Part shown: piece after piece, positions 1 to 57,693 of the stretch | Layout: each line of letters begins with the position of its first letter | Position numbering within the stretch: the stretch's first letter is position 1 | Source of the DNA: Desulfobulbaceae bacterium | Lineage (GTDB): Bacteria > Desulfobacterota > Desulfobulbia > Desulfobulbales > SURF-16 | NCBI GenBank assembly: GCA_002868945.1 | Contig: PKTX01000080.1 | Span: forward strand, 1 to 64,000 | Direction: 5' to 3' | DNA: 64,000 nucleotides | Notes under the pieces: model-generated | What the model saw: the letters and a program-made list of their open reading frames with translations, nothing else | What the model was told of the DNA's origin: nothing | Databases searched by the model: none | Program-made: the position numbers and the translations under genes

Positions 1-110
1 TATATGCCTGCACCCCAAGGGCACTTCTTTCAGGGCGCGCTTATTTTTCTCGCAGTCCTTGATCTCGAACGAAATGACCTATTTCTGGACAGACACTAAG
101 CTGGGCGAGT
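1..110. repeat. Fragment of dispersed repeat family, mosaic copy
   Basis: Positions 41-96 match, on the opposite strand, the left half of the inner element at 7081-7245, ending in the same CAGACAC terminus. Positions 11-42 also carry the modules found inside the 205-bp elements at 48.3 and 57.3 kb (CACCCCAAGGGCAC and TTTCAGGGCGCGCTT). The fragment therefore joins pieces of two repeat families. The copy runs off the window start. It has no credible coding content, and 97-216 holds nothing else I recognise. Confidence 0.75.
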
Positions 111-5841: not shown

Positions 5842-6181
5842 TCCCTGGGGTGGCAGTTGCAAGAGGCTGTTATGAACACCTCTCTGTAATAAACGTTTTT
5901 TTTAGCAGGTGCATCTTTGATCTTACGAATTTAAAAAAAGAATATCAATATGTGCGGCAGGCTGTTTGCTATTGTCGGCAAAGAGTGCATAATTGGTGGG
6001 GAGTCGCGCGTCTCGTTCCTGCCGGCCATGTGGGAAGACAAGCCTCTTGTTGATTGCCGGCTCGGGCGGCTTCCTGTAAAATCTTTGGCGGATCCAGACA
6101 TCAGACAAGATGCGCTCCCCGGCACCTGGGATCCGCGCCGGAGAGAGGCTGATGCCCTGCGACCTGCGGGAGGAAGAGGAA
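5842..6181. other. Intergenic region between divergent genes
   Basis: This 340-bp stretch separates the minus-strand ATPase operon from the plus-strand nitroreductase and must hold both promoters. Its first 110 bases are AT-rich with A and T runs. I see no convincing promoter pair, RNA motif or additional gene; short frames here lack a ribosome site. Confidence 0.4.
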
Positions 6182-7003
6182 ATGAGTTTTATTGAAATCG
6201 ATGAGAGTCGCTGCCAAAAGGATGGCTTGTGCGCCCAGGTCTGCCCCTTTCGTCTGTTAGCAGTGGAGGTGGGCAGGAGCTTTCCGCAGGCCGTGCCGGG
6301 CGCTGGCCAGCGTTGTATCAGGTGTGGTCATTGTCAGGCGGTCTGCCCACATGGGGCCCTCACCCTGGTGGGGCAGGAGGCGGGCCCGGTCTTCAGGCCG
6401 GAGAAGCTGCCGGATGTTGAGCAGCTTACCCAGCTTGTCCGCGGCCGCCGTTCCATCCGTGTTTACCGGAAGAAACCGGTCGAGCGTCGGCTTGTCCAGC
6501 GTTGTATCGACCTGGCCCATTATGCGCCCACGGCCCGTAACAGCCAGCAGATCGGCTGGCTGGTTATTGATGACAAGGAGGAGCTGCACCGTCTCACCAA
6601 CCATGCCTTTGACTGGATGCGCCACCTGTTGGCCACGGACGACCCCAGGGCAGAGCATTACGGTGTTGCCGGGCTGATCAGGGGGTGGGAAAAGGGCCGT
6701 GACGGTATCCTGCGCCAGGCGCCGGGCCTGGTGGTGACCTTTGCTCCGGCCGGCTACGGCCTGGGTACGATGGACAGCACCATCCATCTGACCACCTTTG
6801 AGCTTATTGCCTTTTCTCAGGGGCTCGGCACCTGCTGGGCCGGTTTTTTTCAGCTGGCCGCCGCAGACTGGTCGCCCCTGCGCCAGGCCCTGGCCCTGCC
6901 TGACGGTCAGGAGCTCACCGCTGCCATGATGGTTGGTTATCCACGTCTCAGGTATCAGCGCCTGCCGGAACGTCGGGCCGCCAGGGTTGTCTGGCGCGGT
7001 TAG
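6182..7003 (+). CDS. Ferredoxin-nitroreductase fusion protein
   Basis: A 273-residue flavin enzyme with an N-terminal iron-sulfur domain. Cysteines C11-x5-C17-x3-C21-P and C45-x2-C48-x2-C51-x3-C55-P give one degenerate and one canonical 4Fe-4S motif, the first lacking one of the usual four cysteines. From about residue 80 the nitroreductase fold follows (RRSIRVYRKKPV, HYAPTARNSQQ for FMN binding, GTCWAGFF). The ATG at 6182 follows GGGAGGAAGAGG, a good ribosome site, so I prefer it to the ATG 24 codons upstream. Such fusions are common in strict anaerobes and probably pass electrons from ferredoxin to the flavin; the substrate is unknown. The TAG stop codon is the first triplet of the inverted repeat at 7001. 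Confidence 0.9.
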   Translation: MSFIEIDESRCQKDGLCAQVCPFRLLAVEVGRSFPQAVPGAGQRCIRCGHCQAVCPHGALTLVGQEAGPVFRPEKLPDVEQLTQLVRGRRSIRVYRKKPVERRLVQRCIDLAHYAPTARNSQQIGWLVIDDKEELHRLTNHAFDWMRHLLATDDPRAEHYGVAGLIRGWEKGRDGILRQAPGLVVTFAPAGYGLGTMDSTIHLTTFELIAFSQGLGTCWAGFFQLAAADWSPLRQALALPDGQELTAAMMVGYPRLRYQRLPERRAARVVWRG

Positions 7004-7337
7004 GAGCCTGTCGGACTTAGACATAAATCTACTGCAAATTCGAAAAATCGATCCATATTCCCATGGCTTTTCGCTAAATAGTGTCTGTCCAGAAATAGGT
7101 CATTTCGTTCGAGATCAAGGACTGCGAGAAAAATAAGCGCAGGCATATATGCGATATTCCGAGCATTATTTTTTGAGCATGACGCCGAGATCAGGCCGGT
7201 AAGCGAGTTTACGAGACTCCGAGAGGGCCATTTCTGGACAGACACTAAATAGCTCTGCTATTCGCCTCAAATCCATGTAAATCTGGCCTTGATTTTTCGA
7301 ATTTTCGCTACGATTCTCTAAGTCCGACAGGCTCCTA
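7001..7337. mobile_element. Outer MITE-like inverted-repeat element, 337 bp
   Basis: The ends are perfect 20-bp inverted repeats (7001-7020 and 7318-7337; TAGGAGCCTGTCGGACTTAG). Imperfect complementarity continues inward to about 50 bp, including AATTCGAAAAATC. It encodes no transposase. Its interior has been interrupted by the element at 7081-7245. A short, uninterrupted relative with the same ends is the hairpin at 57593-57693. It lies between the nitroreductase and the 3' end of the diguanylate cyclase gene. Confidence 0.85.
7081..7245. mobile_element. Inner MITE-like element inserted in the outer one
   Basis: A 165-bp element with perfect 16-bp terminal inverted repeats (GTGTCTGTCCAGAAAT at 7081-7096, complement at 7230-7245). 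It is flanked by the direct repeat TAAATA (7075-7080 and 7246-7251), which looks like a 6-bp target-site duplication; it extends to CTAAATAG if the terminal bases are counted. The interior carries the GAGATCAAGGACTGCGAG and GGTAAGCGAG/GAGACTCCGA modules also found at 41-96, 20510-20575 and in the 205-bp elements. It has no coding potential, so transposition would need an enzyme supplied from elsewhere. Confidence 0.85.
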
Positions 7338-20509: not shown

Positions 20510-20575
20510 GTGTCTGAGTCGAAATAGGTCATTTCGGAGTCTCGCCGGCTCGCCCACCTGTTCGAGATCACGGCG
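20510..20575. repeat. Partial copy of the inner-element repeat family
   Basis: It begins GTGTCTG, continues with GAAATAGGTCATTTCG as at 7092-7107, then GGAGTCTCGCCGGCTCGCC and CTGTTCGAGATCAC, matching modules in the 7.1-kb and 205-bp elements in complement. The TCC of the usual GTGTCTGTCC end is altered and no right end is found. Confidence 0.65.
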
Positions 20576-38854: not shown

Positions 38855-38870
38855 TCGTACTTCAGGTCCT

Positions 38871-38918
38871 CCACAAAAAAACCCGAACCAGCTTGTGCTG
38901 GTTCGGGTTTTTTTGTGG
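38871..38918. terminator. Bidirectional terminator between the pil operon and secB
   Basis: A perfect 22-bp stem (38871-38892 with 38897-38918) and TTGT loop. A7 on one side and T7 on the other give a terminator in both directions, for the secretin gene on plus and for secB on minus. Confidence 0.95.
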
Positions 38919-39046
38919 AATTATCGGACGAGAGGGGGCGAGCCGCACGGCAAGGAGAGAAGCAGCGTGGCGCATACCTGCAGGGTGCTTTTTGCAGGTC
39001 CTCTGTGTCACGCCAGATGCAGTGGCGCGCACCGCATTGATGTTGG

Positions 39047-48285: not shown

Positions 48286-48320
48286 AGGGGTATGAAGAGG
48301 GGGAATTCACTAACAGCCAT

Positions 48321-48525
48321 CTTGAATAATTGCTATTTTGCCCGATTTTTTCGTCGCTACGAAAATAAAAATCCTCACATATGCTCGATATGCTGCACCC
48401 CAAGGGCACCCGGAGTGTCGCAGGCTCCCTTACCTCTTTCAGGGCGCGCTTTTTATTTTCTATGCTTCGTGAACTCGAACAGGTAAGCGAGCGGAGCGAG
48501 ACTCCGAAATATCTAATTATTCAAG
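48321..48525. mobile_element. 205-bp MITE-like element, copy A
   Basis: Its ends are CTTGAATAATT and its complement (48321-48331 and 48515-48525). The interior is nearly the same as the copy at 57346-57550 in opposite orientation, including CACCCCAAGGGCACCC, GTGTCGCAGGCTCCC and GCGAGCGGAGCGAG. It carries no transposase. A short open frame (start near 48381) is shared with the other copy, but lacks a ribosome site. It fills the gap between the DHH-CBS fusion gene and the recombinase gene. Confidence 0.85.
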
Positions 48526-48570
48526 AGGCCCTAACAATACCATATTTCCGCAGGCCGACCCCTAAAGTTT

Positions 48571-56616: not shown

Positions 56617-56643
56617 TTTATGTGAAGGTAAAGGGATAGAGGA

Positions 56644-56770
56644 GGTAAAGGAGTTAGAGAAGGTAGAGGAGGTAAAGGAGGTAGGGGAGGGAGAGGTGTC
56701 GAGGAGTTGGAAACGGTGAAGGAGGTAAGGCTGCAGAGGCACCAATCTTTATTTCTCTAACTCCTTTACC
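56644..56770. repeat. Inverted repeat with purine-rich AGGTAAAGG tandem units
   Basis: Plus-strand 56622-56730 is a run of imperfect units of the type GGAGGTAAAGGAGTTAGAGA. An 18-bp arm (56644-56661) has its exact complement at 56753-56770, so the region can form a large hairpin. It lies between the HIT gene and mobB on the transcribed strand. It may be a terminator-like or slippage-made structure. Confidence 0.7.
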
Positions 56771-56805
56771 TTCTCTACCTTCTTCCCTCTTCCCTTGCCC
56801 GGAAA

Positions 56806-57335: not shown

Positions 57336-57560
57336 TTAAGGGTATCTTGAATAATTAGATATTTCGGAGTCTCGCTCCGCTCGCTTACCTGTTCGAGTTC
57401 AAGAAGCATGGAAAGTAAAAAGCGCGCCCTGAAAGAGGTAAGGGAGCCTGCGACACTCCGGGTGCCCTTGGGGTGCAGCATATTAATGATAAGTGAGCAT
57501 TTTTATTTTCGTAGTGCCGAAGAAATCGGCCAAAATGGCAATTATTCAAGATACCCTTAA
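57336..57560. mobile_element. 205-bp MITE-like element, copy B, with extended ends
   Basis: It is the same element as at 48321-48525, in the opposite orientation. The terminal core is CTTGAATAATT (57346-57356) with its complement (57540-57550). Here the inverted repeat extends outward to 21 bp (TTAAGGGTAT at 57336-57345 and ATACCCTTAA at 57551-57560). No coding capacity. It lies in the 797-bp region between the HIT gene and motA. Confidence 0.85.
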
Positions 57561-57592: not shown

Positions 57593-57693
57593 AGGAGCCT
57601 GGCGGACTGAGAGAATCAGTCGCGCAAATTCGAGAAATCTGGACCGATTTCTCGAATTTGCGGCAGGTTTATGTCTACGTCCGACAGGCTCCT
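57593..57693. repeat. 101-bp hairpin element, short relative of the outer element at 7001-7337
   Basis: The ends AGGAGCCT and AGGCTCCT are those of the 7001-7337 element. An inner 16-bp stem (57624-57639 with 57646-57661, GCAAATTCGAGAAATC) encloses TGGACC. Right-hand sequence (TTTATGTCTACGTCCGACAGG) matches the other copy. It may show the uninterrupted or shortened form of that element. It lies 32 bp from copy B of the 205-bp element. Confidence 0.8.

Follow-up and report, generated by a model that had tools for sequence, protein, structure and literature searches.

A mobile 24-nt hairpin inside a nest of two miniature elements in a Desulfobulbaceae genome

Results

One short inverted-repeat element inside another

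What is the structure at positions 7001-7337 made of, in which order did its parts arrive, and what moved them? The window analysed here is a stretch of 64,000 nucleotides (C64:1-64000) from a genome of 3.71 Mb in 83 contigs, and copies of its elements elsewhere in that genome were sampled through searches and fetched stretches. The original prediction had placed an inner element with 16-bp ends and TAAATA flanks at 7081-7245 within an outer element with 20-bp ends at 7001-7337, and every one of these positions proved exact. The outer MITE-like element (7001-7337; 166 bp without the inner one) is bounded by perfect 20-bp inverted repeats at 7001-7020 (plus strand) and 7318-7337 (minus strand). 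The inner MITE (165 bp, 7081-7245, ends GTGTCTGTCCAGAAAT/ATTTCTGGACAGACAC) has perfect 16-bp inverted repeats at 7081-7096 and 7230-7245, and the two TAAATA copies of its 6-bp target duplication occupy 7075-7080 and 7246-7251, both on the plus strand. Block shuffling of the window, done 10 times, produced no perfect inverted repeat of 16 bp within 350 bp. Two more perfect inverted repeats of at least 16 bp lie in the window, at 38870-38919 and 56643-56771. Upstream of the outer element is ORF 6110-7003, a nitroreductase/ferredoxin-domain gene according to Pfam. Its stop codon, the TAG at 7001-7003, consists of the first bases of the outer element, and the insertion may therefore have redefined the C-terminal end of the protein.

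To read the order of events, we searched the genome with an outer element from which the inner one and one of the two TAAATA copies had been taken out. More than 12 near-full-length uninterrupted copies were recovered, as the original prediction had anticipated when it proposed looking for them. These copies read TTTTCGTTAAATAGCTCTGC across the insertion site, and the empty site TTTTCGTTAAATAGCTCTG is present in L031 and other outer copies. An empty site thus exists, with one TAAATA in place before the inner element came, and the proposed order (outer first, inner later) is borne out within the same genome. The outer element is multi-copy and non-coding with terminal inverted repeats, the features of a MITE. 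Many of its copies are flanked by CTAG on both sides, which may be a 4-bp target duplication, but the orthologous positions of the L039 site speak against this, as they have CCTG and no CTAG. At L032 (G000:C69:54562-54727) the nesting order is the reverse of that in the window, an outer element lying within the end of an inner-family element that is degenerate (ATTTCTGG...ACAC).

A second nest of the same kind was found at C62:2982-3296, where a 192-bp inner copy sits in an outer element. It is possible, although we hold it with some doubt, that the two nests record one event, the composite having moved as a whole and a module having been gained or lost later: in both, the inner element occupies the identical TAAATA within the outer one and points the same way. 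The inner copies differ, however (165 bp versus 192 bp), the outer copy of the window shows private changes (CGATCC, TTCGCTAAATA) not shared by the C62 copy, and, because TAAATA fits the target consensus of the inner family, this site may be a hot spot that was used twice.

The inner family is an abundant MITE with modular inserts

Both families were correctly foreseen to be multi-copy and non-coding, the inner element giving 49 BLAST matches in its own genome. The 15-nt inner end TGTCTGTCCAGAAAT, with at most one mismatch, is found there at 169 places, whereas the reversed pattern gives 0. Relatives of the inner family were detected in 34 of 58 related genomes and 24 of 34 genera. The three relatives that had been pointed out within the window are real. 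The one at 41-96 belongs to a partial inner MITE copy (37-96, minus strand) cut by the start of contig C64 and adjoined by module C (see below), that at 20510-20575 (plus strand) resembles the inner MITE end in degenerate form and contains, at 20535-20558, a micro-element that is likewise degenerate, and that at 57593-57693 is a short outer-element relative of about 101 bp.

A comparison of target duplications in at least ten copies had been suggested, and 57 distinct inner copies with both flanks were available. The 6-bp direct repeat is perfect in 35 of them and has at most one mismatch in 50 (15 with exactly one); a single copy reaches 7 bp, and there is effectively no other length. The consensus of the duplicated sequence is TANYTA. 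An 8-bp duplication (CTAAATAG) was our first guess and was dropped, 6 bp alone being constant across the 57 copies. In the congener G001, the site orthologous to that of the own-genome copy L025 is empty, with a single-copy CACTA. Insertion of the inner family thus targets TANYTA and duplicates a constant 6 bp, and, on the strength of these duplications together with its short length, lack of coding capacity, and terminal inverted repeats, we conclude that the inner element is an ordinary but abundant MITE.

The duplication is accordingly diagnostic of the inner family, as had been expected, but in the DNA examined the ends led to no parent transposase. No full-length insertion sequence with inner ends (GTGYCTGTCCAGAAAT) was found in the loci examined, and no transposase-coding parent was present at any of 8 solo inner ends. 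There was no convincing pair of inner ends 0.6-3.5 kb apart in approximately 1.4 Mb of fetched DNA, and none of the genome's 3 DDE_Tnp_1 loci, in a genome-wide search with this single Pfam family, had matching ends.

The inner copies measure 37, 141, 165, 168, 178, 192, 219, 243, 267, or 318 bp, and the differences correspond to short inserts at fixed positions, so it is modular inserts that spread the family over 37-318 bp. Three of the four insert kinds consist of CGGAGTCTC, a short variable stretch, and CGCTTACC. One of them is a 24-nt micro-element, present in the 165-bp copies and absent from the 141-bp copies. In the window's inner MITE it occupies 7198-7221 on the minus strand and reads CGGAGTCTC-GTAAAC-TCGCTTACC, with the stem GT/AC. 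This third layer, which follows a different mechanism, was missed by the earlier reader of the locus and is the more interesting part of it. Module C (GCGCCCTGAAAGAAGTGCCCTTGGGGTGC) is 27-29 nt long, can fold through GCGCCC/GGGTGC, and was seen at L165, L183, L396, and L014. It is present in some inner MITE copies and absent from others, occurs in other contexts in other genomes, and may be a second micro-element family.

The micro-element is a mobile unit of its own

The micro-element has the form C-GGAGTCTC-variable stem-loop-TCGCTTACC and is 23-28 nt long, with CGGAGTCTC and CGCTTACC (complement GGTAAGCG) as its invariant ends. The pattern GGAGTCTCN{4,12}GCTTACC has 241 copies in the own genome and 0 in the reversed control. 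Inside the window, it is also carried by MITEs of a third family, which have GGGTATCTTGAATAATT ends. The copy at 57336-57560 has two micro-elements, one at 57365-57389 (plus strand; stem GC/GC, GCTCCGC) and a variant (GGAGTGTCGCAGGCTCCCTTACC) at 57437-57460 (minus strand) within module C, and a second copy at 48312-48530 has them at 48411-48434 (plus) and 48482-48506 (minus); in each copy, one of the two sits in a module C insert.

Flanks of micro-elements from eight related genomes were joined and then used to search for empty sites. About a dozen exact filled/empty sites were obtained from several genomes, and in their alignments the insert is exactly CGGAGTCTC...GCTTACC, 23-27 nt in length, with unchanged flanks and no target duplication. 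The pairs include CATTT^TGGCC, GCGCT^TGCGC, and GATAT^TCCGA in G023, CTTTT^TGTCC and ATTTT^TGTTC in G056, TGCTT^TGTCG in G027, CCCCT^TGAGG in G045, GGATT^TGCGC in G042/G051, a further pair at AGAT^TGCTT, and, within the own genome, CATTT^TGAGC and GATAT^TCCGA. Among 85 non-redundant contexts, position +1 is T in 78 and position +2 is G in 64; the A-site of the window's inner element departs from this T^T rule. The host sequences are mutually unrelated REP-like repeats and MITEs. A 27-nt micro-element also lies in frame in a long ORF of G042 (L395, G042:C87; the position of L176), the counterpart of which in the congener G051 is without it; the ORF gave no Pfam match. Tandem micro-elements occur at L134, L018, L070, and L079, and a copy is found inside module C. 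We conclude that the micro-element is a mobile unit of its own, that it inserts exactly, mostly at T^T and usually with G following, with no target bases duplicated or deleted, and that it enters many unrelated repeats, occasionally genes, and also itself or its neighborhood.

For the repeats, the empty sites are those of paralogous copies, comparisons at a single orthologous locus are few (L176, L172), and the filled/empty pairs could in principle also be explained by precise excision. A quite different account would make the 24-nt unit immobile, a built-in piece of MITE structure that comes and goes by slippage or by recombination between MITE copies. The own-genome micro-elements that we inspected do occupy just a few fixed positions within MITE-like repeats, and modules A and B always occupy the same positions in the inner MITE. 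Nevertheless, micro-elements with different stems are placed exactly in unrelated repeats and in one gene elsewhere, their flanks match the empty site to the base, which strongly disfavors a structural segment, and the stems covary (next section), so we consider an immobile unit very improbable. Since every own-genome copy inspected rides in a MITE-like repeat, independent insertions in this genome are few, and we infer that the high copy number there arose mostly by hitch-hiking in amplified MITEs after a limited number of insertions.

The stem is maintained by compensatory change within one order

Of the 58 relatives, 37 carried micro-elements, spread over 26 of the 34 genera sampled, with a maximum of 301 copies (G004). 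In a sample of the phylum they were found in 11 of 297 genomes, mostly as one chance-like match each. The named genomes among the matches listed are overwhelmingly MAGs of Desulfobulbaceae or Desulfobulbus; Desulfogranum japonicum DSM 18378, which is cultured, is also among them. The micro-element is essentially confined to one order, and these names suggest that it is the Desulfobulbales and that the window comes from it. G125, from another family of the phylum outside that order, has 49 micro-elements, mostly of stem type GCAAGC; a horizontal arrival is possible for these.

Among 104 distinct micro-element middles, Watson-Crick pairing joins the first and last bases in 76 of 102 cases and the bases next to them in 76 of 96, compared with 45 ± 3.6 and 52 ± 3.7 (maxima 58 and 64) when the 3' halves were dealt anew 2000 times, a procedure that ignores relatedness. 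In one length class of 37 variants, 89.2% of the pair cells were paired versus 63.5 ± 4.0 after shuffling, and the covariation score was 0.669, a value reached in 0 of 500 shuffles (0.243 ± 0.048); with slid stem partners the score was at most 0.084. The stems include GC/GC, CC/GG, AC/GT, GT/AC, AT/AT, and GGT/ACC, and the same stem types recur across different genera. This inner stem is 2-3 bp only. For a predicted outer stem on one strand (GAGU/GCUU), no compensatory change was seen among 41 variant copies. The micro-element matched no model in Rfam. The literature searched held no description of these sequences or of MITEs of the Desulfobulbales group, and the literature matches to the sequences look like unrelated chance.

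Candidate enzymes for the micro-element

Y1 (HUH) transposase systems typically make no target duplication and have a fixed flanking dinucleotide. Micro-element insertions share both properties, some of them are at palindrome centers (CCCCT^TGAGGGG, GCGCT^TGCGC), and Y1_Tnp was matched in 54 of the 58 relatives. A Y1 transposase such as those of IS200/IS605 or the RAYTs might thus move the micro-element in trans as a single-stranded DNA hairpin. Several observations make this unlikely: copy number and Y1 gene number correlate only weakly (rho 0.25, p 0.06), G036 has 3 micro-elements and no Y1 match, whereas G007 and G031 carry 8-11 Y1 genes and zero micro-elements, the stem of 2-3 bp is short for known TnpA recognition, and the GTAG/CGTC tag is absent.

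A route by way of RNA and reverse transcriptase, which has been proposed for the small dispersed repeats (SDRs) of Nostoc, would fit a stem that is conserved in structure rather than in sequence, the predicted outer stem of the GGAG strand with its G-U wobble pairs, and insertion without target duplication. We regard this route as improbable, given that the predicted outer stem shows no covariation and that an RVT_1 match was missing from G004 (301 copies) and G012 (223), the two highest counts among the relatives, as well as from G005 (40) and G013 (35), the assemblies being incomplete. In L302, from a Desulfobulbaceae MAG, a 726-aa ORF beginning at about 633 lies some 80 bases from a micro-element. 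This ORF looks like a reverse transcriptase-Cas1 fusion, and its position next to the micro-element is probably a coincidence. Neither Y1 nor RVT_1 shows a convincing relation to copy number, and the searches found no mobilizing enzyme for any of the three layers, outer, inner, or micro-element.

Discussion

Very probably, non-autonomous mobile elements are nested at this locus on three levels, the innermost of them being the mobile 24-nt micro-element. The outer MITE would first have been present at a site with a single TAAATA; the inner MITE would then have entered it, duplicating those 6 bp, and the micro-element within the inner MITE would form the third level. The micro-element itself is likely non-autonomous, moved by an enzyme supplied in trans that would read the two invariant ends and a hairpin recognized by its shape and not its sequence. 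Because compensatory change keeps the stem and no target duplication is made, the intermediate may be single-stranded, either a DNA hairpin or RNA, a suggestion that we make more cautiously. We further propose, tentatively and with the balance somewhat against it, that hairpins of 23-28 nt are inserted throughout this lineage by a dedicated enzyme, at T^T and without duplication; they would then be among the smallest independently mobile DNA and the first outside cyanobacteria.

To our knowledge, independently moving elements of 21-27 nt have been described in one cyanobacterial group only, without an explanation of their movement. With hundreds of copies in a lineage unrelated to that group, the micro-element would allow the question of what moves such tiny elements to be tested independently; its empty sites are exact, its stems are compensatory, and some of its hosts, Desulfogranum japonicum among them, are cultured. 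The micro-element would also account for much of the size diversity of MITEs in these genomes, and in the G042 ORF it shows in-frame insertion into a protein gene.

Among known systems, the inner element resembles NEMIS, ERIC, RUP, and Nezha in being short, non-coding, and present in many copies, with inverted repeats and a duplication of fixed length; it differs from them in the range from 37 to 318 bp that modular inserts give it, and the search for its parent transposase was empty. The micro-element has counterparts of several kinds. Rickettsia palindromic elements (RPEs; mentioned in PMC3733652) are palindromic repeats that can insert in frame within genes, as the micro-element does at L176. 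They are much longer, about 100-150 bp. REP/REPIN sequences are palindromic repeats of 20-40 bp in high copy number, probably moved in trans, and some of their families insert within longer palindromes (PMC3116915, PMC3733652). A GTAG or CGTC tag by the stem defines REPs (PMC3733652), whereas the micro-element has neither tag and no clear link to Y1 gene number. The GC clusters of yeast mitochondria are tiny palindromic mobile elements (e.g. 42 nt) that merge, shuffle, and diversify; like the micro-element they are small, mobile, and without coding capacity, but they are eukaryotic and organellar, the palindrome is longer, and a putative target-site duplication has been reported (PMC4478555).

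The closest likeness is to the SDRs, which are cited as ref. 43 in PMC3116915. The micro-element shares their traits as a dispersed repeat of 21-28 nt in high copy number, with a secondary structure backed by compensatory changes, and with copies within MITEs, in tandem with or adjacent to one another, and at filled versus empty sites. SDR families of Nostoc punctiforme and its relatives were reportedly described by Elhai et al. in Genome Research in 2008. The Nostoc SDRs are 21-27 nt long and occur in many copies, some families keeping their secondary structure by compensatory change; they are found inside minitransposons and inside themselves, belong to one lineage, and are mobile without a known enzyme. 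The micro-element, in contrast, is found in a different phylum, has a different consensus, and is likened to them through descriptions of SDRs. It forms a single family in which the ends are invariant and the stem varies freely, and its target is mostly T^T(G), with no duplication and with many exact filled/empty pairs. Judged by this analogy, it would work like the Nostoc SDRs and represent, in a different phylum, a new family of mobile elements of extremely small size. The nest of an inner element in an outer one is itself ordinary; the order-wide family of mobile 24-nt hairpins is new.
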